Below the pieces are notes generated by a model, which saw only the letters and a program-made list of their open reading frames with translations, ran no database searches and had not been told where the DNA came from. From contig NZ_AUDY01000008.1 in the NCBI RefSeq assembly GCF_000425705.1, forward strand, positions 992,001 through 1,056,000: 64,000 nt of DNA, read 5' to 3'. Of the stretch, positions 23,331-59,793 are shown piece by piece. Positions within the stretch are counted from its first letter, which is position 1. Each line of letters opens with the position of its first letter. Source of the DNA: Halobacillus kuroshimensis DSM 18393 (GTDB lineage: Bacteria; Bacillota; Bacilli; Bacillales; Halobacillaceae). The position numbers were made by a program, and so were the translations under genes.

Positions 23331-23486
23331 AAAAAACTCTCTTCCTTATCAAGAAGAGAGTTTCGCATAACTATCAGCCAAACTCTTATCTCCCGGAAAT
23401 CATCATTCCGGCGGATTTAGCACCACTCCACATGGAAGGTTGCTGTGACGTCTACGGGCCTTTCCCTCAGTCACTCTTGATAAGAA
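23331..23486 (-). promoter_or_regulatory. SAM-I (S-box) riboswitch with terminator
   Basis: Minus strand: CTTATCAAGAGTGACTGAGG (from 23484), GGCCC, the AGCAACC and GGTGCTAAATCC blocks, and closing GGAGATAAG (about 23385), the standard S-box order. It is followed by a terminator: GAAACTCTCTTC pairing with GAAGAGAGTTT (23334-23363) and a U-run (23331-23336). High SAM should stop transcription before metN. Confidence 0.95.
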
Positions 23487-34740: not shown

Positions 34741-34772
34741 AGAATCAATACAAAAAACTGTATACATATGAG

Positions 34773-34934
34773 GCACTAGGGGAGCTGCTGCGAGCGGCTG
34801 AGAGGATGATCCGACCCTTGGCACCCGAACTAGATAATACTAGCGTGGGGAAGTGCAGCCGTTCTATCAATCAGGCCTTTACAGGTTTTATTCATCGATC
34901 AACGGACTGCATTCCCATGGGATGCAGTTTTTTT
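34773..34934 (+). promoter_or_regulatory. TPP riboswitch (THI element) with terminator
   Basis: Aptamer at about 34773-34862: CACTAGGGGAGC, GGCTGAGAGGATGATCC, ACCCGAAC, TAGATAATACTAGCGTGGGGAAG, the usual THI-box order. A terminator follows at 34906-34934 (ACTGCAT with ATGCAGT, then TTTTTTT). Thiamine pyrophosphate should stop transcription of ykoFEDC. Confidence 0.95.
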
Positions 34935-48226: not shown

Positions 48227-49075
48227 TTACAAAGCTTTATACCATATATTCATATCTTCGAGTCCACTGCCGATCATACTGTTTTGAATCATACAGCCCC
48301 CGAACGTGAAGCCCTGCTGTCTTGCTACGATATTCATCCCCATGGAAGCTGCACGCGTGTAGGAGAACATCGTCTGAACGCCGAGATGTTTCATCTTTTC
48401 TTCCAGGTGTGGGTATTGACAGGATAAAAGACCTTTTCCTCTATGAGAAGGAAGGGTTGCGCAGTCCGTGAATTCCGCTGCATTAAATTCAGGAAATAGA
48501 TCAGCGGAACAGGAGCTCACCAGCTGGTGCCGGTCATGAATGAGGGAAAAATAAACTTCTTCTCTCATCAGCTGTTTAATATAGGAAGGGTCATGAATAG
48601 GGGTTGGGTATTTCGGAAAAACCTCCCGGTACAACTCGGCCATTTCCTCTGCATCCTTTTCCTCCGCCCATCGGATATCATAACCTTCAGGCAGGTGCTT
48701 AACCCCGGTCTGCTCCTGTATGTTTAATTCCTTGAGGCGTGGGATCACATTGCCCGTGCCGGCTCTCCCTCTGTCAGGATTCAAGTACCTGGCATAAATC
48801 AGCGCATCCTCCCCTTGAAAAAAACCTTGGATTTCACCTTCATATATAAAGGAAAGCTCCTCTGCAATCGATGTTTCTTTTTGATCTGCCCGCACATAGA
48901 AAATGATTTTATCGCAGTCGTTATCCAGAGCCGTCTGAGAAAGTTCATCCAGTTCTTCCTCAGTGATCCAGTCTGGAAGCTTGTACACCTTGATCCGTTT
49001 ATTGACAGGTTCCAAATGAACATCATCGTTTTCCAAAAGCGTTTGAACAGAAAGATCCACCTTAGACATAATCAC
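48227..49075 (-). CDS. ablB: Putative beta-lysine N-acetyltransferase, AblB/YodP-like (orphan)
   Basis: 282 aa. C-terminal GNAT domain (YDIRWAEEKDAEEMAELYREVFPKYPTPI... AEFTDCATLPSHRGKGLLS... SYTRAASMGMNIVARQQGFTFGGCMIQNSMIGSGLEDMNIWYK), the pattern of B. subtilis YodP and archaeal AblB. With lysine 2,3-aminomutase (AblA/KamA), AblB makes N-epsilon-acetyl-beta-lysine, an osmolyte in methanogens. No aminomutase gene is in the window. GTG 49075 has AAAGGGGAG before it; ATG 49069 is possible. Confidence 0.87.
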   Translation of the reverse strand: MIMSKVDLSVQTLLENDDVHLEPVNKRIKVYKLPDWITEEELDELSQTALDNDCDKIIFYVRADQKETSIAEELSFIYEGEIQGFFQGEDALIYARYLNPDRGRAGTGNVIPRLKELNIQEQTGVKHLPEGYDIRWAEEKDAEEMAELYREVFPKYPTPIHDPSYIKQLMREEVYFSLIHDRHQLVSSCSADLFPEFNAAEFTDCATLPSHRGKGLLSCQYPHLEEKMKHLGVQTMFSYTRAASMGMNIVARQQGFTFGGCMIQNSMIGSGLEDMNIWYKAL

Positions 49076-50575: not shown

Positions 50576-50607
50576 TCATCCTGTCTGAATTCTATGTAAA
50601 AATTAAG

Positions 50608-50633
50608 AAAAGAGGGGGGGGCGCCCCTCTTTT
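50608..50633. terminator. Terminator of the lysine-degradation operon (minus strand)
   Basis: AAAAGAGGGG (50608-50617) with CCCCTCTTTT (50624-50633). Confidence 0.85.
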
Positions 50634-50634
50634 C

Positions 50635-51789
50635 CTACACTTTATGATTTCGTTCTGTAATGACAACTCCCCGCTTCGCCATTTCCCTGATATAAAAATC
50701 ACCAGGAACAATTCTTTCGGGAGGATGGACGCCCCGCTTTGTGATCCGGCCGCTTCCGATCATCTGTGCAGCAACGGATATCGTATTAGCGGTCGCTCTT
50801 GCCATCGCCGTTACATTAGCTTCCCTGTCTTTATATGTGATCATTTCATAGCAGCAGGATTGGTCTTCCCCATCCTTCCGCCCTTCTACCAGGACTCTTA
50901 AAAGCACAGCGTCATCTTTTTCTTTTAGTTCCAAAAGAGGGTCAATGCTTTTCAGTAGAACCTTTCTCGTATTCACTTTCCTCCCGTCTACTTCCACTTC
51001 TTTGCCGGCTCCTGTGAGGTTCAGGTCCACGAGCAGCTTCATCTTCGCTGCATGGCCGGGGTAACGGATCGTTTTATATTCCAGCGTTTCAATATCCGGG
51101 TAGGATTGCAACAGCGTTGATGTGCCGCCGGAAGTGTGAAAAGCCTCCAGAGGGCCGAAGCGGTCAAAGTAAATCGGCTCTATTTCTGTCAGGGATTCCA
51201 CCTCTTCCAGTTTCCCTTTTCTTATTATCGTGGAAGGATCAGAATAGTGGTCCAGCAGTCCTTCCATAGAAAAGACATGGTTATACTCGAGCGGGGGCTC
51301 TGGGCGGACAGGAATCCCCCCGACGAACAGCTTTATACCACTCAAGCTGTCCAGTTTGGATGCGCCATACCCGGAAAGGATATTAATCATCCCGGGGGCT
51401 ACACCGAGGTCAGGGATGATGGTAACACCCGCCTTTCGGGCCGATTCATCCAGCTCAAGCACACGGTCGGTAATGTGACCGATATGCCCTCCAAGATCGA
51501 CGGAGTGGACACCCGCTTTCACTGCTGTACGCGCAACGATTTCGTTAAACGAATAAAACAAGGCATTGATCACGACATCGTAATCTTGTAAAAAGCTCTC
51601 GAGCTGCTGTTCATTGCCTGCATCAACCTGAAAGGCGGAAAGCTTTGGAGAATGCAGCGTATGAACGACAGCCTCGGCTCTTTTCTGATCAATATCAGCC
51701 AGACCGACATGTGTTACACCAGGACTGTGAGCAAGGTCTCTGGCCGCTTCCTTTCCCATGAGACCGGACCCTAAAACAGCCACCTTCAT
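50635..51789 (-). CDS. lysDH: L-lysine 6-dehydrogenase
   Basis: 384 aa. Closely matches, from memory, Geobacillus stearothermophilus L-lysine 6-dehydrogenase (385 aa): [33 protein letters not shown] (VNALFYQFNETVAKTA there), [58 protein letters not shown]. It removes the 6-amino group of lysine with NAD+, giving 2-aminoadipate 6-semialdehyde, which cyclises to piperideine-6-carboxylate. Fourth and last gene of an operon with an aldehyde dehydrogenase (20-nt gap), a ThDP enzyme and an aminotransferase. Annotators often label it saccharopine dehydrogenase-like. Confidence 0.9.
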
Positions 51790-51809
51790 TGGATCACTCC
51801 TTCTGCCCG

Positions 51810-53315
51810 TTATGAACCTTCCTCTACATCAATCTGCGCCCGCTGCAGGCGGCCGCTGAAATCGACATAAACGGCCTTCCATTCTGTGAACACATCAAGA
51901 GCAGCTACTCCGGAATCTCTATGGCCGTTGCCTGTGCCTTTTGTTCCGCCAAACGGAAGATGGATCTCAGCACCTGTCGTTCCCGCGTTCACATAAACGA
52001 TTCCTGTGTCGAGATCCCGTTGAGCAGCAAACACTCGGTTTACATCCTTAGTGAAAATCGAACTGGACAGGCCGAATTCGACTTGATTATTGATATGAAC
52101 CGCTTCTTCAAAGCTTTTAACAGGAATAAGGGATACCACCGGACCGAAAATTTCTTCACGGGCAATCCGCATGTCCGGAGTAACATCTGTGAAAATAGTC
52201 GGGGCGAAGTAACAGCCTTTTTCCAATGCGCCCTGGTTCATCACAGAACCTCCTGTAAGCAGCTTGGCCCCTTCTTGTTTTCCAATGTCTACGTACTGCT
52301 GAATTTTTTCAAGGCCGCCCCGATTGATAATCGGTCCCACCTTTATCGACTCATCAAGGCCGCTTCCTATTGTCAGCTTTTCCGTTTCCCTGAGCAGCCG
52401 CTCCTCCAGCTCTTTTTTGACGTTCTCGTGCACCATAACACGGCTGCAGGCGGTGCAGCGCTGTCCGCTCGTGCCGAACGCACTCCACAAAATCCCTTCA
52501 ACAGCAAGGGATAAGTCAGCGTCATCCATGACGATCACACCATTTTTTCCACCCATTTCCAATGACACTTTCTTCAGGCGGCTTCCGCACTTACCAGCAA
52601 TGTGCCTGCCAACTTCGTTCGATCCGGTGAAGGATATAACACGGATGTCATCTTCTTCGATCATCGCCTCCCCTACGTTGGAACCGGATCCGAACACAAC
52701 GTTCAGAACACCTTCAGGAAGGCCTGATTCCTGAAGAATCCCGGCCATTTCGAAGGCCATGAACGGGGTTTCGGTTGCAGGTTTCCAAACGACGGCATTT
52801 CCAGCCACGATGGCAGGGAAAGACTTCCACGTTGCAATGGCAATGGGAAAGTTCCAAGGGGTTATAATTCCGACGACACCTACAGGGGCACGGACACTCA
52901 TAGCAAACTTATCCTTCAGCTCGGAAGGAGTTGTCTGTCCAAACAGGCGCCGGCCTTCTCCAGCCATATAAAACGCCATGTCGATCCCTTCCTGCACCTC
53001 TCCACGCGCCTCTTCAATGACTTTACCGTTTTCCATCGTCAGCAGACGAGCCAGATACTCTTTTTTCTCCTTCATGATCAAGCCTGCTTTATAAAGGACC
53101 TCCGCCCGCTGCGGTGCAGGAACAAGCGCCCATTTCTTTTGGGCAGAAACGGCCGCCCTGGTCGCCGCCTTAACGTCCTCTGCGTTGGATAACGGAACGT
53201 CGGCTAGTATTTCTGAATCAGCCGGGTTATACACCTTGGTCATTTTTTCCGTAGAAGGTGCCTTCCATTCGCCATTGATAAAGTTCTTTAACTTTTTCAC
53301 CTGGGTGATTTCCAT
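51810..53315 (-). CDS. Aldehyde dehydrogenase, candidate aminoadipate/glutarate semialdehyde dehydrogenase
   Basis: 501 aa. Full [52 protein letters not shown] (catalytic Glu), [13 protein letters not shown] (catalytic Cys), [11 protein letters not shown] and [15 protein letters not shown]. The ending [32 protein letters not shown] is that of the Bacillaceae YcbD/KGSADH-like group. Beside lysDH, the likely role is oxidation of aminoadipate semialdehyde (piperideine-6-carboxylate) and perhaps also glutarate semialdehyde. ATG 53315 follows AAGAGGAGTGAGG; a longer frame overlaps the upstream gene and has no site. Confidence 0.88.
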
Positions 53316-53332
53316 GTCCTCACTCCTCTTGG

Positions 53333-54973
53333 TTACTGATTTGACCGGATACTTGAAATGGTCCGGTTCAAGGAAATCTGCTCCGGATCGCATTCAATTT
53401 CAATGACTACAGGGACGTTCGACCGTAGAGCTTTCTCCAGGGCGCCTGAGAATTCCTCTGCTGTTTGTACATAGAACCCTTCCGCTCCCATATGACGGGC
53501 TATTTTACTGAACCGGACCTCTCCCAGGTCTGTTCCGGCGACCTGGTACGGGTAATGCATTTCCTGATGCATGCGGATGGTTCCATACATACGGTTGTTA
53601 AAGACAAGACTAATTACAGGAATGTTGTATCTGACGGCGGTCTCCACTTCCTGCATGGTCATCATAAACCCTCCATCTCCGGAGAGAGAGACGACGGTTT
53701 TGTCAGGAGATGCCAGCTTCACTCCAAGGGCTGCAGGGAGTCCGTAGCCCATTGCCCCGGATGTCGGACCCACATAGGAATGGGGATGACGAAACACAAA
53801 GAATGAATGAAGCCATCCCGCAAAATTACCAGCATCGTTGGTAATCACACTGTTTTCTTTGAGTTTGTGCTGCAAACACTCGATAACCCGGCCATTTAAC
53901 ATCTGCCTTCCAGCGTTGGTCAGCGTGCGTTCATATTTCAGCCGCCTTTGTTCCGCCCACGAAATCCATCCGGCGGTAATATGCATGGATCTCAGCTTTT
54001 TCAATGTCTGTCGTGCATCAGCGGCCACCCCCAGGAACGGCGGATGCACACTTCCAATCGTCTGTTCATCGATATCTATATGAATGACCTTGTGGTCGGG
54101 AGTGAGAAGCTTATAGTCCTGTGTTGTAATTTCTGATAAACGGGTGCCGACCGCAACAATCGTATCGGCTTGACGAACCGTTTCCAGAATCTCCGCATCG
54201 GTTCCTAACCCGAGATGGCCGGCATATAAACGGTGGTCATTTGGAAAGCTGTCATGTCTGCGAAAGGCTGTAACGACGGGAAGGCTGAAGCGTTCTGCGA
54301 AAGAGACCAGCTCTTGTTCTGCGCCTGCACGCTTAATCCCGCCCCCGGCAATCACCACCGGACGGACAGCGGAATTCAAGGCAGTCTTTACGGCTTCTAC
54401 TTCCTCATCAGAAGGTGCAGGTGCAGGTATTGTAACCGCCGTCCCGAATGTCATAAGGGCTTCTTTGTTCAAAATATCTTCAGGCAGCGAAACCACCACT
54501 GGTCCGGGCCGCCCCGTTTGTGCAATCCGGAAGGCACGCTGAATGATTTCGGTTGTCCGGGGCGGCTCTCTGATTTCCGCCACCCACTTCGCGATAGGTT
54601 TGAAAAAGGCTTCCAAATCCACTTCCTGAAACCCTTCACGCCCCTTGAAGCTGGAATGCACTTGTCCAAGGAGAACGACAAGAGGTGTGGAGTCCTGCGC
54701 AGCCGTATGGACACCAATAGCAAGGTTGGCCGCTCCAACTCCTCTAGTGGCCATGACGACTCCAGGACAGGAGCCCGCTTTCCCATAGGCTTCCGCCATA
54801 AACGATGCACCGCCTTCATGCCTGGCGGAAATCAACTGCATGGAACGTTCCCTTGATATAGCATCCAGCACCGGCAGAAAACTTTCCCCTGGGACGCAGA
54901 AAATATGTCGGACACCTTCCATTTTTATACACTCCACAATGGCCCGGGCACTGGACATAACCGCTTGCTTCAC
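53333..54973 (-). CDS. ThDP-dependent enzyme (acetolactate synthase/benzoylformate decarboxylase fold), candidate 2-oxoadipate decarboxylase
   Basis: 546 aa. Three-domain ThDP enzyme: catalytic Glu53 (SARHEGGASFMAEAYGK), central domain, and ThDP/Mg motif GDGGFMMTMQEVETAVRYNIPVISLVFNN. Family members make acetolactate or decarboxylate 2-oxo acids. Located between an aminotransferase (4-nt gap) and the aldehyde dehydrogenase (17-nt gap) in a lysine operon, so the substrate 2-oxoadipate, giving glutarate semialdehyde, is the simplest reading. No small (regulatory) subunit of acetolactate synthase is adjacent, which argues against branched-chain synthesis. The substrate is inference. Confidence 0.87.
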   Translation of the reverse strand: MKQAVMSSARAIVECIKMEGVRHIFCVPGESFLPVLDAISRERSMQLISARHEGGASFMAEAYGKAGSCPGVVMATRGVGAANLAIGVHTAAQDSTPLVVLLGQVHSSFKGREGFQEVDLEAFFKPIAKWVAEIREPPRTTEIIQRAFRIAQTGRPGPVVVSLPEDILNKEALMTFGTAVTIPAPAPSDEEVEAVKTALNSAVRPVVIAGGGIKRAGAEQELVSFAERFSLPVVTAFRRHDSFPNDHRLYAGHLGLGTDAEILETVRQADTIVAVGTRLSEITTQDYKLLTPDHKVIHIDIDEQTIGSVHPPFLGVAADARQTLKKLRSMHITAGWISWAEQRRLKYERTLTNAGRQMLNGRVIECLQHKLKENSVITNDAGNFAGWLHSFFVFRHPHSYVGPTSGAMGYGLPAALGVKLASPDKTVVSLSGDGGFMMTMQEVETAVRYNIPVISLVFNNRMYGTIRMHQEMHYPYQVAGTDLGEVRFSKIARHMGAEGFYVQTAEEFSGALEKALRSNVPVVIEIECDPEQISLNRTISSIRSNQ

Positions 54974-54977
54974 ACCA

Positions 54978-56147
54978 TCACCCTCCCTTCATCGCCTTTT
55001 TCATCCGCAGCACAGCCTCATGCAGACGCTCGACGGGGTGGGTCAGACTGATGCGGATGTACCCTTCTCCCTGCTGCCCAAAGGCTGTTCCGGGTGTTAG
55101 AATGATTCCGGCTTCATCGAGCATTTTTTCAGCAAAGCTCTGGGATGTGAACCCCTCCGGGACCTGCGCCCAGACAAAAAACGTCCCTCTTGGTTTTACA
55201 GCACGGACATTCATTTCCTCCAGCTCTGGAAGAATAATAGTAAAGCGCATCTCGTACGTCCTGTTATTGGCCACGACAGAATCAAAACTGCTGTTTAAAG
55301 CGGCTGCTCCCGCTTTTTGAATGGCAGGGAACTGCCCTGTGTCCCTGTTGCTTTTGACAAGACCGAGGCCTTGGATAAGTTCTTCGTTCCCCGCGGCATA
55401 TCCCATTCTCCACCCTGCCATATTGAAGCTTTTAGACAGAGAGCCGAATTCAATCCCAACATCCTTTCCTCCCTCAGCCTGTAGAAGACTTGGAGATTGA
55501 TAGTCTCCGAAGGTCACAAGATCATAAGCGGCATCCTGCAGAAGAATCAGTTGATTTTTTTTCGCAAATCGGACAGCTTGTTCATACGTTTCCATTCCAA
55601 CCGTTCCACCGGTCGGATTGTTCGGATAGTTCAGGATCATCAATTTTGCCCGGGTGCAGTCCCGCTCCGAAATTTGATCAAATGCAGGTGCAAAATTCTC
55701 CTCTGGATTGAGAGGATAAGGAATCGTCACCCCGTAGGCCAAATGCACAGCTGATTGATACACCGGGTAGCCGGGGTCCGGCGCCAGGACGCCGTCGCCA
55801 GGATTGAGCATGGACTGGATTAAATGGGCAATGCCTTCCTTTGAACCGATCAGGGCCAAGACCTCCCTGTCCACATCAAGGGATACATGAAAACGGCGCT
55901 GATAAAAATCGGTCACGGCCTGCTTGAATTCCATGCACCCATGATAAGGGGGATATTTATGGTTCTCCGGCTTTCTGACTTCCTGAATAAGCTTGTCTAT
56001 AATAAACGGCGGTGTAGAAAGATCCGGAGCTCCGATCCCCAGATCAATCACATCAATCCCCTGCGCCGTAAGAGCCATCTTCTTTTTATGAAAAAGAGAA
56101 AACAGATATGCAGGCAGACTCTGCACCTGTTTAGAAAGTGGAATCAT
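54978..56147 (-). CDS. Class I/II PLP aminotransferase, candidate 2-aminoadipate transaminase
   Basis: 389 aa, fold type I. Schiff-base Lys239 in GSLSKSFNMAGWRMGY; NYPNNPTG and DAAYDLVTF contact the cofactor. The LDLGIGAPDLSTPPFI start and HKYPPYHG resemble the LL-DAP/aspartate aminotransferase branch. First gene of the minus-strand operon; amino-group transfer from 2-aminoadipate is the expected role in context. ATG 56147 has GGAGGTAAGG before it. Confidence 0.87.
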   Translation of the reverse strand: MIPLSKQVQSLPAYLFSLFHKKKMALTAQGIDVIDLGIGAPDLSTPPFIIDKLIQEVRKPENHKYPPYHGCMEFKQAVTDFYQRRFHVSLDVDREVLALIGSKEGIAHLIQSMLNPGDGVLAPDPGYPVYQSAVHLAYGVTIPYPLNPEENFAPAFDQISERDCTRAKLMILNYPNNPTGGTVGMETYEQAVRFAKKNQLILLQDAAYDLVTFGDYQSPSLLQAEGGKDVGIEFGSLSKSFNMAGWRMGYAAGNEELIQGLGLVKSNRDTGQFPAIQKAGAAALNSSFDSVVANNRTYEMRFTIILPELEEMNVRAVKPRGTFFVWAQVPEGFTSQSFAEKMLDEAGIILTPGTAFGQQGEGYIRISLTHPVERLHEAVLRMKKAMKGG

Positions 56148-56188
56148 TTACCTTACCTCCAGCCTGTCCTATATTCACATTCACCGTA

Positions 56189-56218
56189 CTGTCTTATCCT
56201 ATTAGCTGGATAAGGCAG
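56189..56218. promoter_or_regulatory. Inverted repeat, candidate operator between divergent lysine operons
   Basis: CTGTCTTATCC (56189-56199), 8 bp, GGATAAGGCAG (56208-56218): 11-bp arms with one mismatch. It lies 42 nt upstream of the aminotransferase start, in the 239-bp gap shared by both operons. No regulator gene is adjacent. Confidence 0.5.
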
Positions 56219-56320
56219 GTATGATGATAGATTTTACCCATTCATAGGCTGCCCCCTTTCTGCATAGGATGAGATACACCCCGTAAAGGACAACTTTGAA
56301 CCGTAACCCCCGCGTTTCCC

Positions 56321-56364
56321 AAGCCAGTCGGATTCATACCACGTATGGGTTCTTCTGGCTTTTT
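56321..56364 (+). promoter_or_regulatory. Terminator-like hairpin in the CoA-transferase leader
   Basis: AAGCCAG (56321-56327) pairs with CTGGCTT (56355-56361), and inside it ATTCATAC (56332-56339) pairs with GTATGGGT (56343-56350, two G-T pairs); a T-run follows at 56360-56364. No plus-strand gene precedes it, and the start codon is only 23 nt further on, so it may be an attenuator. Confidence 0.55.
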
Positions 56365-56386
56365 CTATGGAAGGAAGTGGTCGTAA

Positions 56387-57574
56387 ATGGAGACAGCCTT
56401 GAAAGGACGTCGGATCCTTGATTTGACCCGTGTGCTGGCAGGCCCCTACTGTTCCATGATCCTCGGTGACCTTGGCGCAGAAGTCATAAAAATAGAGGCC
56501 CCGGGCGGCAGTGATGAAACACGCTGCTGGGGTCCTCCCTTCAAAAATGGAGTCAGCTCCTATTTTTTGTGTACCAATCGGAACAAAAAAAGCTTAACAG
56601 TGAACCTCAAAAAGCCGGAAGGCATACAGATCATCGAAAAACTCGTCCAAACATGCGATGTGGTCATTCATAACTTCAAGACAGGGACGATGGAAAAGCT
56701 CGGAATCGGATATGACCGTTTAAAAGAGATCCATCCAGGGATCGTCTTCTGTTCTATTACCGGGTTCGGCGAAACCGGACCGTACCGTGACAGACCGGGA
56801 TACGATTTTATCATTCAGGCCATGAGCGGCTTAATGAGCATTACCGGAGATGAAACATCCGGCCCGCAGAAACTGGGAGTAGCGATTACCGATATTCTGA
56901 CCGGTCTTTATGCGTGCATCGGCATCCAGTCCGCTTTATTGGAACGCGAGGTTTCCGGAACAGGGCAGAAAATCGACCTGTCCCTTTTCGATTCAGCTGT
57001 AAGCGCCCTTGTGAATATCGGCAGCAATTATTTAATGACCGGTCATCTACCTGAAAGACTCGGCAGCCGTCATGCCAATATCGTCCCATACCAATCGTTC
57101 TATACGAAGGACGGAGAAATTGTTATTGCTGTAGGAAATGACCGGCAGTTCATGCAATTGGCAGAAATGCTCGGTAAACCCGAACTGGGATCGGATGAGA
57201 AGTTCAACTCCAATACGGGAAGAGTAGAAAACAGGAAGGAACTTTCAGCCATCCTGCAGAAGTTGTTTCTAGAGGGAAATACTTCCTTTTGGGAACAAGC
57301 CTGCCTGGCTAGGAATATCCCTTTCGGCCCCATCCAAACGTTGGAGGACGTCCGGAACGACCCGCAATTAAAGGACAGGGAAATGTTTATCCGCATGCAT
57401 CACCCACAAGCCGGAGCGACATCCATCATCGGAAGTCCGTTGAAACTCTCAAAAACTCCCGTAACCTACCGCACGGCTCCACCTGAACCAGGTGCCGACA
57501 GTGCTGTCCTTCTATCGGAACTCGGCTATGCCCCAAACGAAATACAACGACTGAAAAAAGGTGAGATCATATAA
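56387..57574 (+). CDS. Class III (CaiB/BaiF) CoA-transferase, candidate glutarate CoA-transferase
   Basis: 395 aa. ILDLTRVLAGPYCSMILGDLGAEVIKIE start, GFGETGPYRDRPGYDFIIQAMSGLMS, and catalytic Asp169 (GVAITDILTGLYA), the same number as in formyl-CoA transferase. These enzymes swap CoA between two acids; human SUGCT does so for glutarate. Followed at 11 nt by a glutaryl-CoA-dehydrogenase-like gene, which makes glutarate (with succinyl-CoA as donor) the likely substrate. Site GGAAGGAAGTGG precedes the ATG. Confidence 0.88.
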   Translation: METALKGRRILDLTRVLAGPYCSMILGDLGAEVIKIEAPGGSDETRCWGPPFKNGVSSYFLCTNRNKKSLTVNLKKPEGIQIIEKLVQTCDVVIHNFKTGTMEKLGIGYDRLKEIHPGIVFCSITGFGETGPYRDRPGYDFIIQAMSGLMSITGDETSGPQKLGVAITDILTGLYACIGIQSALLEREVSGTGQKIDLSLFDSAVSALVNIGSNYLMTGHLPERLGSRHANIVPYQSFYTKDGEIVIAVGNDRQFMQLAEMLGKPELGSDEKFNSNTGRVENRKELSAILQKLFLEGNTSFWEQACLARNIPFGPIQTLEDVRNDPQLKDREMFIRMHHPQAGATSIIGSPLKLSKTPVTYRTAPPEPGADSAVLLSELGYAPNEIQRLKKGEII

Positions 57575-57585
57575 GGAGTGATGGT

Positions 57586-58773
57586 ATGAATTTTTCATTT
57601 ACGCAGGAACAGGACATGCTTCGTAAAACGGTCCGCAGCTTCGTTGATCAGGAAATTATGCCGAACATCAGACAATGGGATGCTTCCGGTCATTTTGACC
57701 ACGGTGTCCTTCGACAGCTGGCAGACCTTGGGCTGATGGGGGTATGCATACCTGAAGATTATGGAGGAAGCGGGATGGATTATAACGCCCTGGCGATTGT
57801 ATGCGAGGAACTGGAGCGTGGCGATACCGCTTTCCGCACCGCGGTATCTGTGCACACAGGCCTGAACTGTATGACGCTTCTGCAGTGGGCCTCCGAGGAA
57901 CAGAAGCAGCGTTATCTCATCCCTCAGGCCAAAGGAGAAAAAGTGGGTGCGTTTGGACTCACGGAACCAGGCGCCGGATCTGATGTTGCTGCCCTTCAGA
58001 CGACGGCTGTCAAAGATGGGACCGAATACGTTTTGAACGGGCAGAAAACCTGGATCTCCCTCTGTGATGCTGCCGATCATTTTCTCGTCTTTGCCTATAC
58101 AGATAAAAGTAAAAAGCACCACGGTATATCCGCCTTTATAGTGGAACGGACATTCCCAGGCTTTTCATCAAAAGCTCAAAAAGGAAAGCTCGGCATACGT
58201 GCGGGGAATACGGGAGAATTGTTTTTTGATGGTGTGCGCGTGCCGGAAGATAACCTGGTCGGGCAGGAAGGAGACGGGTTTAAAATAGCGATGTCCGCCC
58301 TTGATAATGGACGCTTTACTGTCGCAGCCGGAGCCTGCGGACAAATTATGGCCTGCCTGGAAGCATGCGTGGATTACTGCCTTGAGCGGAAAACGTTCGG
58401 AATGGAAATCGGCAGGCATCAGCTCGTCCAGCAGATGATCGCCCGAATGGAAGCCGGCCTGCAGATGAGCCGCCTGCTCGTCTATAAAGCAGGTGAATTA
58501 AAAAACGAAGGAAAAAGAAACACAAGAGAAACATCTCTGGCCAAATGGCAGGCGTGCGATTTTGCCAACAAAGCCGCTGATGATGCTGTACAGATTCATG
58601 GTGCTTATGGTTATTCTGATGAATACCCAGTTGAACGGTATCTGAGGAATTCCAAAGCTCCAGTCATTTATGAAGGCACACGGGAGATCCATACCATCAT
58701 GCAGGCCGAGTATGTCCTCGGATATCGGAAAGATAAACCATTAGACCGCATGCTGCCGGCGTGGAAGTCTTAA
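57586..58773 (+). CDS. Acyl-CoA dehydrogenase, glutaryl-CoA dehydrogenase-like
   Basis: 395 aa, FAD enzyme. Catalytic base Glu363 (VIYEGTREIH). The segment EELERGDTAFRTAVSVHTGL parallels human GCDH (ELERVDSGYRSAMSV): Arg84 and Ser88 correspond to Arg94 and Ser98, which hold the distal carboxylate of glutaryl-CoA, and Glu77 to Glu87. Butyryl-CoA dehydrogenases lack that arginine. Likely converts glutaryl-CoA to crotonyl-CoA and CO2. Second gene of the plus-strand operon; GGAGTG precedes the ATG, and a terminator follows. Confidence 0.87.
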   Translation: MNFSFTQEQDMLRKTVRSFVDQEIMPNIRQWDASGHFDHGVLRQLADLGLMGVCIPEDYGGSGMDYNALAIVCEELERGDTAFRTAVSVHTGLNCMTLLQWASEEQKQRYLIPQAKGEKVGAFGLTEPGAGSDVAALQTTAVKDGTEYVLNGQKTWISLCDAADHFLVFAYTDKSKKHHGISAFIVERTFPGFSSKAQKGKLGIRAGNTGELFFDGVRVPEDNLVGQEGDGFKIAMSALDNGRFTVAAGACGQIMACLEACVDYCLERKTFGMEIGRHQLVQQMIARMEAGLQMSRLLVYKAGELKNEGKRNTRETSLAKWQACDFANKAADDAVQIHGAYGYSDEYPVERYLRNSKAPVIYEGTREIHTIMQAEYVLGYRKDKPLDRMLPAWKS

Positions 58774-58784
58774 ATCAATTAAAA

Positions 58785-58822
58785 AACAACAGCCTGCAGG
58801 TGCCCCCCTGCAGGCTGTTGTT
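58785..58822. terminator. Bidirectional terminator
   Basis: A perfect 16-bp stem, 58785-58800 with 58807-58822 (AACAACAGCCTGCAGG), between convergent genes. Confidence 0.92.
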
Positions 58823-58824
58823 CC

Positions 58825-59793
58825 TTACCCTTTCCACTCAAAGCTGCTCTCACTTCTCATTTTGATTCGAGGATGCTTCCGAAGCTCTCCAGCCAGTTGA
58901 AAAAGAGCTTCATCTTTTTGTTTCGCCTCAATCATACAGTCAATCTGGTCTGTTGTACCGGCGGTTTTCTCAATGAAAGTCAGGAACATATCCGGATCAA
59001 CGTAATCCGCATGACTTTTGAATGCTTCCGGGCTTTTTGGGCTGGAGATATGCATTTTCACAGGAAGCGGGGAATGAGTCCACGTCCCAAGTACGCGGCT
59101 CCAATTCTCTTCCCATTCCTTATGATCATAGTTCGCCATATGATGATGAAGATCAAAAACGAGGGGGATTTGAAGTTTTTCACATACATAGAGACAATCA
59201 TTCAACGTGTAGGAAGTATCATCATTTTCAATCATCACCATTTTCTGGATCCCTTTCGGCACATGTGCCCAGTTCTCTATAAAACGCTCCAGAGATGATT
59301 CTTTATCCTTGTACCGCCCTCCGAGGTGGAAGACGCATCGATGGGTCGGATCGATCCCCATATGGTGCAGAAGGAGATAATGATACTTCAACACAGTGAT
59401 AGACGATTGGAAAATCTCTTGATCACGGGCGTTCAGCACCACAAAATGATCAGGGTGGAAATCCAGGCGCATCCCATTCTCTCCGGCGTAATCTCCAAGC
59501 ATCTTCAAGTCCTGCTTAATCGGACCGATGTAATCCCACCCTTGCAAAGCCTCATGCGTGGCGAGGGGAACAAGACGGGAACTCAATCGAAAAAACTGGA
59601 TATCGTGTGCTTTGTTATGCTTCAAAAGTCTGAGGCAGTTCTGTAAATTGGCAGAAGCGGTCCGCTCCAGTTTCCTTTTTGCAGCTTCTTGATCTTTCAT
59701 CTGAGCAAATCGTTTATAAGTTACGGTCTGAGAAGGAGAAGCATTGTGCAGATGAACACTCATAGCCACATAACCGAGTCGGAATAAAGTCAT
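58825..59793 (-). CDS. uvsE: UV damage endonuclease
   Basis: 322 aa from ATG 59793 (in-frame ATG 59799, GTG and TTG just upstream also possible). TIM-barrel UvdE family: FRLGYVAMSVHLHNASPSQTVTYKRF start, FFRLSSRLVPLATHE, MRLDFHPDHFVVLNA, CVFHLGGRYKDKESSLERF, MIENDDTSYTLNDC, VFDLHHHMANY, and MIEAKQKDEALFQL carry the metal-ligand His/Glu/Asp residues. Nicks DNA 5' of UV photoproducts. Monocistronic. Confidence 0.94.
   Translation of the reverse strand: MTLFRLGYVAMSVHLHNASPSQTVTYKRFAQMKDQEAAKRKLERTASANLQNCLRLLKHNKAHDIQFFRLSSRLVPLATHEALQGWDYIGPIKQDLKMLGDYAGENGMRLDFHPDHFVVLNARDQEIFQSSITVLKYHYLLLHHMGIDPTHRCVFHLGGRYKDKESSLERFIENWAHVPKGIQKMVMIENDDTSYTLNDCLYVCEKLQIPLVFDLHHHMANYDHKEWEENWSRVLGTWTHSPLPVKMHISSPKSPEAFKSHADYVDPDMFLTFIEKTAGTTDQIDCMIEAKQKDEALFQLAGELRKHPRIKMRSESSFEWKG

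Follow-up and report, generated by a model that had tools for sequence, protein, structure and literature searches.

Introduction

Animals degrade lysine to glutaryl-CoA by the route through saccharopine and 2-oxoadipate dehydrogenase. In cyanobacteria, an acetolactate synthase-like 2-oxoglutarate decarboxylase is followed by an aldehyde dehydrogenase (ALDH). This thiamine diphosphate (ThDP)-dependent enzyme converts a 2-oxo-dicarboxylate to the semialdehyde that is one carbon shorter (PMC10418658). In Pseudomonas and E. coli, the regulators CsiR and GcdR control csiD-lhgO and gcdH in response to glutarate (PMC6667623, PMC6265302), and a Phaeobacter study describes lysine breakdown through 2-aminoadipate, with 2-oxoadipate not detected (PMC5653290). 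Here, we analyzed a stretch of 64,000 nucleotides (the window; G000:C1:992001-1056000) within the 3.85 Mb genome of Halobacillus kuroshimensis DSM 18393, in which two divergent operons encode an L-lysine 6-dehydrogenase (LysDH), an ALDH, a ThDP-dependent protein, an aminotransferase, a class III CoA-transferase and an acyl-CoA dehydrogenase (ACAD), together with the leader elements that precede the CoA-transferase gene in the window and in related bacteria.

The pathway that we propose for the six genes would share aminoadipate semialdehyde, 2-aminoadipate, 2-oxoadipate, glutaryl-CoA and crotonyl-CoA with the animal route. Unlike in animals, LysDH would replace the saccharopine enzymes, and the ThDP enzyme, an aldehyde dehydrogenase and the CoA-transferase would together replace the oxoadipate dehydrogenase complex. 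The proposed ThDP reaction is of the same type as that of the cyanobacterial 2-oxoglutarate decarboxylase. The last two reactions would be those of animal succinyl-CoA:glutarate CoA-transferase (SUGCT) and glutaryl-CoA dehydrogenase (GCDH). Equivalents of Glu87, Arg94 and Tyr369 (human GCDH numbering) are present in the window ACAD, whereas both window proteins score below the NCBIfam cut-offs for SUGCT and GCDH. While CsiR and GcdR are DNA-binding proteins, the Bacillales counterparts of those gene sets carry a structured RNA leader.

A predicted route from lysine to crotonyl-CoA

We propose that the two operons (Table 1) would serve lysine catabolism through free glutarate, a reading that best explains the locus and in which we place considerable confidence. 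LysDH would remove the 6-amino group of lysine, the ALDH would convert the resulting semialdehyde to 2-aminoadipate, and the aminotransferase would convert 2-aminoadipate to 2-oxoadipate. The ThDP enzyme would then decarboxylate 2-oxoadipate non-oxidatively to glutarate semialdehyde, from which an aldehyde dehydrogenase would form glutarate. Finally, the CoA-transferase would make glutaryl-CoA from glutarate and succinyl-CoA, and the GCDH-type enzyme would oxidize and decarboxylate glutaryl-CoA to crotonyl-CoA. For the steps after LysDH, the proposal draws on protein families, active-site residues, gene neighborhood and co-occurrence. A preliminary description of this DNA had put forward the same route; it stands as the best reading on the strength of LysDH orthology, the likeness to SUGCT, the GCDH-type site and a ThDP enzyme outside the acetolactate synthases, but two of its elements, the distinctiveness of the pathway and a single ALDH for two steps, are not supported by the results below.

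The window LysDH matches PDB entry 3abi (PH1688; E 8e-38), a lysine dehydrogenase. It is 72% identical to the protein of C. thermoamylovorans 1A1 (L046), which makes it an orthologue of a LysDH whose activity has been shown by others. In that work, the 1A1 LysDH and an ALDH of Pseudomonas fulva led to 2-aminoadipate in E. coli fed lysine (PMC9437556). The start of L046, MKIGVL, agrees with a primer given there, and from the strain name and this start we infer that L046 is the gene that was used.

The best NCBIfam match of the window ALDH was GucD (541, cut-off 770), and its score for L-piperidine-6-carboxylate dehydrogenase was 419 (cut-off 730). The preliminary description had suggested that this one enzyme might act at two steps. 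Instead, a second ALDH that resembles succinic semialdehyde dehydrogenase (SSADH; 36-40% identity) is encoded in 31 of the 58 complete loci described below, that is, in 31 of the 40 outside the Halobacillus type; one of these proteins scored 604.7 bits against the SSADH cut-off of 646. Such an enzyme is what the glutarate semialdehyde step predicts. The Halobacillus cluster has no second ALDH gene, and a gabT-gabD-like pair (gabT recognized by eye) lies elsewhere in the H. kuroshimensis genome, its ALDH being 51% identical to the second ALDH. Glutarate semialdehyde would here be oxidized by the window ALDH or by GabD, and it is possible that in Halobacillus the window ALDH serves both steps.

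The ThDP protein falls into the PRK08199 subfamily (NF006052; 718.6 bits, over the cut-off of 539). For all acetolactate synthase models among the best 25 of 60 families, its score stayed below the cut-off, as for TIGR00118 (422, cut-off 538). Across 65 aligned ThDP proteins, the position of the acceptor arginine of acetolactate synthase (AHAS) is always Ile or Val, and that of the AHAS tryptophan is always His. In AHAS, the Arg of FDDR binds the carboxylate of the acceptor. AHAS activity was rejected, since the profile scores stay below the cut-offs and this arginine is missing. Glu30 and the PGE, GDGG and NN motifs are conserved, and the AlphaFold model (pLDDT 88) has the AHAS fold. Arg467 and His469 are invariant in the 65 sequences; alignment and motif counting place them at positions that line the substrate pocket of AHAS and of 2-oxoglutarate decarboxylase (PMC10418658). 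These two residues may form the site for the distal carboxylate. Arg467 was kept in all 18 proteins compared, lysine-linked or not. The ThDP family given in the preliminary description stands; the substrate, and with it the activity of a 2-oxoadipate decarboxylase, is proposed from sequence.

Two other settings of related ThDP genes were seen. In L119:2-9790, cut by a contig end, a ThDP gene (49% identity) lies with genes for an ALDH, a GCDH-like piece, a Rieske oxygenase, a symporter and a flavoprotein of the old-yellow-enzyme type, possibly another quaternary amine route. In L116:770-16612 and in L117, a PRK08199-type gene stands in an operon-like row with a peptide ABC transporter, an epimerase, RidA and an M20 hydrolase; an ALDH is present in L116 only, the locus on which profiles were run.

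The CoA-transferase has the class III fold (PF02515, 432 bits), and Asp169, already noted in the preliminary description, is present in 64 of 64 aligned sequences. Among 35 matches to solved structures, SUGCT (9br7) ranked second (E 3.6e-107), behind an entry named formyl-CoA transferase. We claim only that the protein probably works like SUGCT. In the ACAD, Glu77, Arg84 and Ser88, also noted earlier, are joined by Tyr362 and Glu363. All five residues are kept in 66 of 66 rows, in which the window protein is counted twice, as reference and as member, and the full set occurs in none of the 10 distinct paralogues measured, out of 11, in the same genome. The best solved matches were 4l1f, an enzyme of the butyryl-CoA type, and 3mpi, the non-decarboxylating glutaryl-CoA dehydrogenase of Desulfococcus. 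4l1f has Gly at the position of the Arg, while 3mpi keeps the Arg and has Ala and Val at the positions of Glu77 and Tyr362, whose equivalents presumably decide decarboxylation. The pattern of a decarboxylating GCDH, an Arg with Ser and Glu and a Tyr before the catalytic Glu, was found in all 66 rows. By these residues, the ACAD has a GCDH-type active site.

Conservation and co-occurrence of the cluster

A LysDH scan over 84,980 species confirmed 125 stretches, of which the best 80 loci were kept; with the window, this gave 81. The closest named locus is that of Halobacillus litoralis (L035; LysDH identity 93%). The complete six-gene set was found in 58 of the 81 loci within the fetched flanks, some of the remainder being cut by contig ends. 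In 18 Halobacillus and Sediminibacillus loci, two divergent operons flank one intergenic region, and in most other complete loci the aminotransferase, ThDP, ALDH and LysDH genes are followed by a converging unit of CoA-transferase and GCDH, which in 31 of those 40 also includes the second ALDH gene. In nearly all complete loci these four genes are consecutive on one strand, with the ThDP gene between those of the aminotransferase and the ALDH. An IclR regulator is present in 34 of the 81 loci and a DUF3870 protein in 36.

Orthologues were then counted in 199 genomes of the order, with thresholds of at least 60% identity for LysDH, at least 48% for the ThDP protein and E below 1e-150 for the ACAD. 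LysDH was found in 38 genomes (three with in-frame stops), the ThDP protein in 33 (the next protein having only 36% identity) and the ACAD in 59. LysDH and ThDP occur together in 29 genomes (expected 6.3), ThDP and ACAD in 27 (expected 9.8), LysDH and ACAD in 32 (expected 11.3), and all three in 25. LysDH is present in 18 of the 22 genera with ThDP and in 25 of 97 genera overall (p 1.5e-10, which takes no account of kinship deeper than genus). The LysDH and ThDP genes are at most 6 kb apart in 23 of the 29 genomes that hold both, and two same-genus genomes (G147 and G198) lack all three orthologues together. In 398 sampled genomes of the phylum, with at most three ThDP candidates scored per genome, a ThDP match at E 1e-140 was found in two, that of the window and another of the order. 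Because 58 of 81 loci are complete and LysDH and ThDP co-occur far beyond expectation, the grouping is not due to chance. The genome survey for co-occurrence envisaged in the preliminary description came out in favor of the six genes belonging together. Its view of the pathway as distinctive fared differently: with LysDH and ThDP together in 29 of the 199 genomes and 18 of the 97 genera, the proposed route would be a common Bacillales variant of lysine catabolism.

Alternative explanations of the cluster

Several observations weigh against the route through free glutarate. The CoA-transferase scored 410.4 against NF052585 (succinate--glutarate CoA-transferase; cut-off 750), and the ACAD scored 371.9 against NF045552 (glutaryl-CoA dehydrogenase; cut-off 470). 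A search of the PDB with the AlphaFold model of the ThDP protein did not discriminate a decarboxylase from a carboligase, and Lys386 and Lys471, the 2-oxoglutarate-binding residues of the cyanobacterial enzyme, were not seen at the motif-counted positions. PRK08199-type proteins of 47-57% identity occur in other settings (with a peptide ABC transporter and M20 hydrolase, a Rieske enzyme, TRAP/AMP-ligase genes or a dicarboxylate symporter), so the family is not lysine-specific; a 60% identical protein (L123) lies apart from LysDH and adjoins a carboxyltransferase. The 80 loci, as the best LysDH matches of the 125, lean toward near relatives. Moreover, 9 of the 38 LysDH genomes have no ThDP orthologue (G011, G021, G057, G081, G091, G099, G116, G144 and G155, two of them with in-frame stops in LysDH), 4 of the 33 ThDP genomes have no LysDH (G022, G035, G125 and G177), and just 32 of the 59 ACAD genomes also hold LysDH.

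The LysDH genomes without ThDP and the other settings of the ThDP family would fit a cell in which the 2-oxoglutarate dehydrogenase (OGDH) complex forms glutaryl-CoA from 2-oxoadipate made by the cluster, the ThDP enzyme and CoA-transferase serving another acid that joins there. The H. kuroshimensis genome does hold an OGDH E1, and L128 has genes for GCDH, the second ALDH, IclR, LysDH, ALDH and aminotransferase without ThDP. We nevertheless consider this explanation unlikely: the E1 over the cut-off (1060 bits) is a single one, the ThDP gene sits between the aminotransferase and ALDH genes in nearly all complete loci, a glutarate CoA-transferase would be pointless if glutaryl-CoA were made directly, and the presence of csiD-lhgO in this genome speaks for free glutarate. 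Since CsiD (422 bits, cut-off 333) and LhgO are encoded at G000:C2, free glutarate is probably a metabolite of this organism, for which there are probably two outlets. A route by HglS was rejected, as no HglS match was found in the genome. A second possibility is that LysDH and ALDH serve the osmolyte or pipecolate metabolism of a halophile and are merely adjacent to a glutarate unit. Halophilic genera account for many of the 80 loci, and some loci have LysDH and ALDH without the aminotransferase, ThDP and CoA-transferase genes, but the one-strand row of four genes in nearly all complete loci, and the joint absence of both halves from G147 and G198, make this very improbable. We give still slightly less weight to a route by 5-aminovalerate, in which lysine would lose its 2-amino group to the aminotransferase, the ThDP enzyme would convert 2-oxo-6-aminohexanoate to 5-aminopentanal and the ALDH would yield 5-aminovalerate, with LysDH on a side branch. 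A decarboxylase beside an ALDH suits aldehyde formation, and in the relatives L212 and L215 an RNA leader of this kind precedes genes of the 5-aminovalerate type; against this, the cluster has no class III aminotransferase of the 5-aminovalerate type, LysDH co-occurs with ThDP genome-wide (its presence in the surveyed loci being by construction), and the 2-oxo product would cyclize.

Leader elements of the glutarate genes

In the proposed route through free glutarate, the glutarate half would have its own leader control, by a hairpin terminator in the window and by an aptamer-like RNA with a terminator in other Bacillales genera. A hairpin of the form GCCAG-NN-GGATTCATAC-NNN-GTATGGGTTC-NN-CTGGC lies 5' of the CoA-transferase gene in all 18 Halobacillus and Sediminibacillus loci inspected, including the window; in 13 aligned loci, one has two mutually compensating stem changes. 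In the window, T5 follows the hairpin, and the folding energy of the leader is by itself only mildly unusual (z -1.9; 7 of 200 shuffles as stable). Three of the inner ten pairs are G-U, so the dyad lies in RNA and not in DNA. A DNA operator was considered, but the halves of the inner helix are not palindromic as DNA and pair as RNA with G-U, so RNA was preferred. Judged by its sequence, this element is a conserved hairpin terminator that differs from the RNA of the relatives.

Leaders of the CoA-transferase gene are longer in many other genera. They consist of ACUG, P1, P2 (its loop containing CCA), AAAAGCCAGU and a terminator; the 3' arm of the terminator ends in ACUGGC, followed by the U-run. 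In a MAFFT alignment of 12 leaders, covariation was 0.186 compared with 0.138 when shuffled (reached by 0 of 500). A first covariance model, seeded with CoA-transferase leaders, so that a CoA-transferase context is not independent, matched 41 of 397 genomes of the order at E 0.01. The 24 best genomes (at least 39 bits) have the RNA before a CoA-transferase in 21 cases and before an amino acid permease in 3; of six inspected among the 17 weaker genomes, two fit (L187, before GCDH, and L189, before csiD) and four do not. A second model, built from 59 hits, was searched in 39 chosen genomes, of which 22 matched at E 0.01. Its 29 hits of at least 43 bits precede a CoA-transferase (8), GCDH and the second ALDH (1), csiD (10), an amino acid permease (6), a GntR-lhgO-DUF3870 set (1), an ALDH (1), an ABC transporter followed by a γ-aminobutyrate (GABA)-type aminotransferase and ALDH (1), or nothing related (1, L213). 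Hits below about 43 bits were treated as doubtful; of those inspected, L187 and L189 fit, and L186, L188, L190, L191, L217, L218 and L221 do not. The models themselves turned up the csiD, permease and aminotransferase contexts. At E 0.1 the class had no hit within the window, and the H. kuroshimensis genome holds a copy at G000:C2:381691-381791 (L219:7692-7792), directly before csiD and lhgO.

In 71 leader RNAs, 91.7% of cells pair, with 303 double-sided changes (84 shuffled) and a covariation of 0.541 (0.195 shuffled, at most 0.098 slid), in an alignment fitted to the covariance model. An unfitted alignment of 21 sequences outside the CoA-transferase leaders recovers P1, three P2 pairs and the terminator, with 16 of 24 pairs compensated. 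P2 is the least well paired stem (80%). The terminator stem GCCAGU/ACUGGC is followed by the U-run, and the mutually exclusive ACUG/CAGU pairing is complete in 68 of the 71; these sequences hardly vary, so there is no covariation for that pairing. When eight aptamer stretches were folded alone (z-scores -2.8 to -6.3), seven formed P0, P1 and P2, the eighth being cut before CAGU. Two marks of a riboswitch, a covarying structure and, read from sequence, an expression platform with exclusive pairings, were found. Rfam 15 gave no match at the gathering score at the leaders of the window and 32 fetched loci, and when one leader was searched with E raised to 10, the top match reached 25 bits, the gathering score being 83. 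The relatives' leader was also considered as the terminator of an upstream gene, a reading set aside because different loci have different upstream genes, some of them in divergent orientation.

We therefore distinguish a separate claim, to which we incline with some reserve: the leader RNA would bind glutarate and form a new riboswitch class that activates glutarate genes by antitermination. The aptamer would consist of P0 (ACUG/CAGU), P1 and P2 with its CCA-containing loop. When bound, it would hold the CAGU of the 5' arm of the terminator; when unbound, GCCAGU would pair with ACUGGC before the U-run. A glutarate-dependent antiterminator is proposed because glutarate is the metabolite common to the downstream genes. 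These include two known glutarate consumers, CoA-transferase/GCDH and csiD-lhgO, and likely producers, the GABA-type aminotransferase, the ALDH and a pair of Rieske oxygenase and BCCT transporter, as well as permeases. Alternatively, the RNA might be bound by a protein or by another C5 ligand. A brief literature search found no glutarate riboswitch by title, which is no claim of its absence from print.

Four copies of the RNA lie in a 10 kb island of another genome (L211:4484-14534, G042), before an ALDH gene, before genes for a Rieske oxygenase and a BCCT transporter of the carnitine/butyrobetaine type, before CoA-transferase-GCDH-lhgO-DUF3870 (38 bits) and before csiD; from its genes, the island looks like one for the breakdown of a five-carbon betaine to glutarate. 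L212:5089-15079 reads RNA, ABC transporter, GABA-type aminotransferase, ALDH, RNA, CoA-transferase, GCDH and DUF3870, and is likely a 5-aminovalerate cluster. DUF3870 proteins recur beside genes for LysDH, ThDP, lhgO, csiD and GCDH (L068:12029-12349, L203:1037-1360, L115, L211 and L216:4868-5194); the one in L216 has an RNA match of 41 bits and a membrane protein of the DUF819 family as neighbors. A 40-bit match at L105:11204-11319, between lysDH and an mreB/mbl gene, with no CoA-transferase found, is perhaps a relic.

Features of the window

All six genes of the preliminary description were found as open frames on the strands given there, and profile searches agree with their families. Five of the frames keep their coordinates, while the ALDH frame, drawn to 53393, starts too early: its start is most likely the ATG at 53315 behind AAGAGGAG, which gives 501 amino acids and no overlap with the ThDP gene. 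Both operons end with terminator-like hairpins. A putative beta-lysine N-acetyltransferase gene (ablB, by profile match) lies at 48227-49075, 1.6 kb from the cluster, and Rfam places ordinary S-adenosylmethionine (SAM) and thiamine pyrophosphate (TPP) riboswitches at 23383-23486 and 34768-34868, respectively.

Table 1. Coordinates of the lysine cluster and its flanking hairpins in the window
Feature	Position	Strand	Basis or remark
Terminator-like hairpin 3' of lysDH	50604..50637	-	Hairpin scoring
L-lysine 6-dehydrogenase (lysDH)	50635..51789	-	Last gene of first operon; N and C domains of saccharopine dehydrogenase
Aldehyde dehydrogenase, probable aminoadipate semialdehyde dehydrogenase	51810..53315	-	Aldedh PF00171; start and ribosome site
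ThDP-dependent enzyme, NCBIfam PRK08199 subfamily; proposed 2-oxoadipate decarboxylase	53333..54973	-	Profile, motifs, AlphaFold model
Class I/II aminotransferase (LL-diaminopimelate aminotransferase-like); proposed 2-aminoadipate aminotransferase	54978..56147	-	Opens operon; profile matches
Hairpin (56323-56359) then T5, directly 5' of CoA-transferase ribosome site	56323..56364	+	Conserved
Class III CoA-transferase; proposed succinyl-CoA:glutarate CoA-transferase	56387..57574	+	NF052585, SUGCT 9br7, Asp169
Acyl-CoA dehydrogenase with glutaryl-CoA signature Glu77, Arg84, Ser88, Tyr362, Glu363	57586..58773	+	Residues, paralogue comparison
Long terminator-like hairpin 3' of acyl-CoA dehydrogenase	58780..58827	.	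20 pairs, scored on - strand

Discussion

A literature search, made mostly at title level, found no description of this route or of a 2-oxoadipate decarboxylase. If the route is true, it would give a function to a PRK08199-type ThDP protein, close the gap between 2-oxoadipate and glutarate in the lysine breakdown of these Bacillales, and offer a native module that turns lysine into glutarate for use in polymer building blocks. The RNA class that came out of the intergenic region is a stronger surprise than the metabolic route. Were it to sense glutarate, it would stand beside the proteins CsiR and GcdR as their counterpart in RNA and provide a ready glutarate sensor, and its regulon would map the way to DUF3870 and to routes for 5-aminovalerate and betaine that have been little studied.

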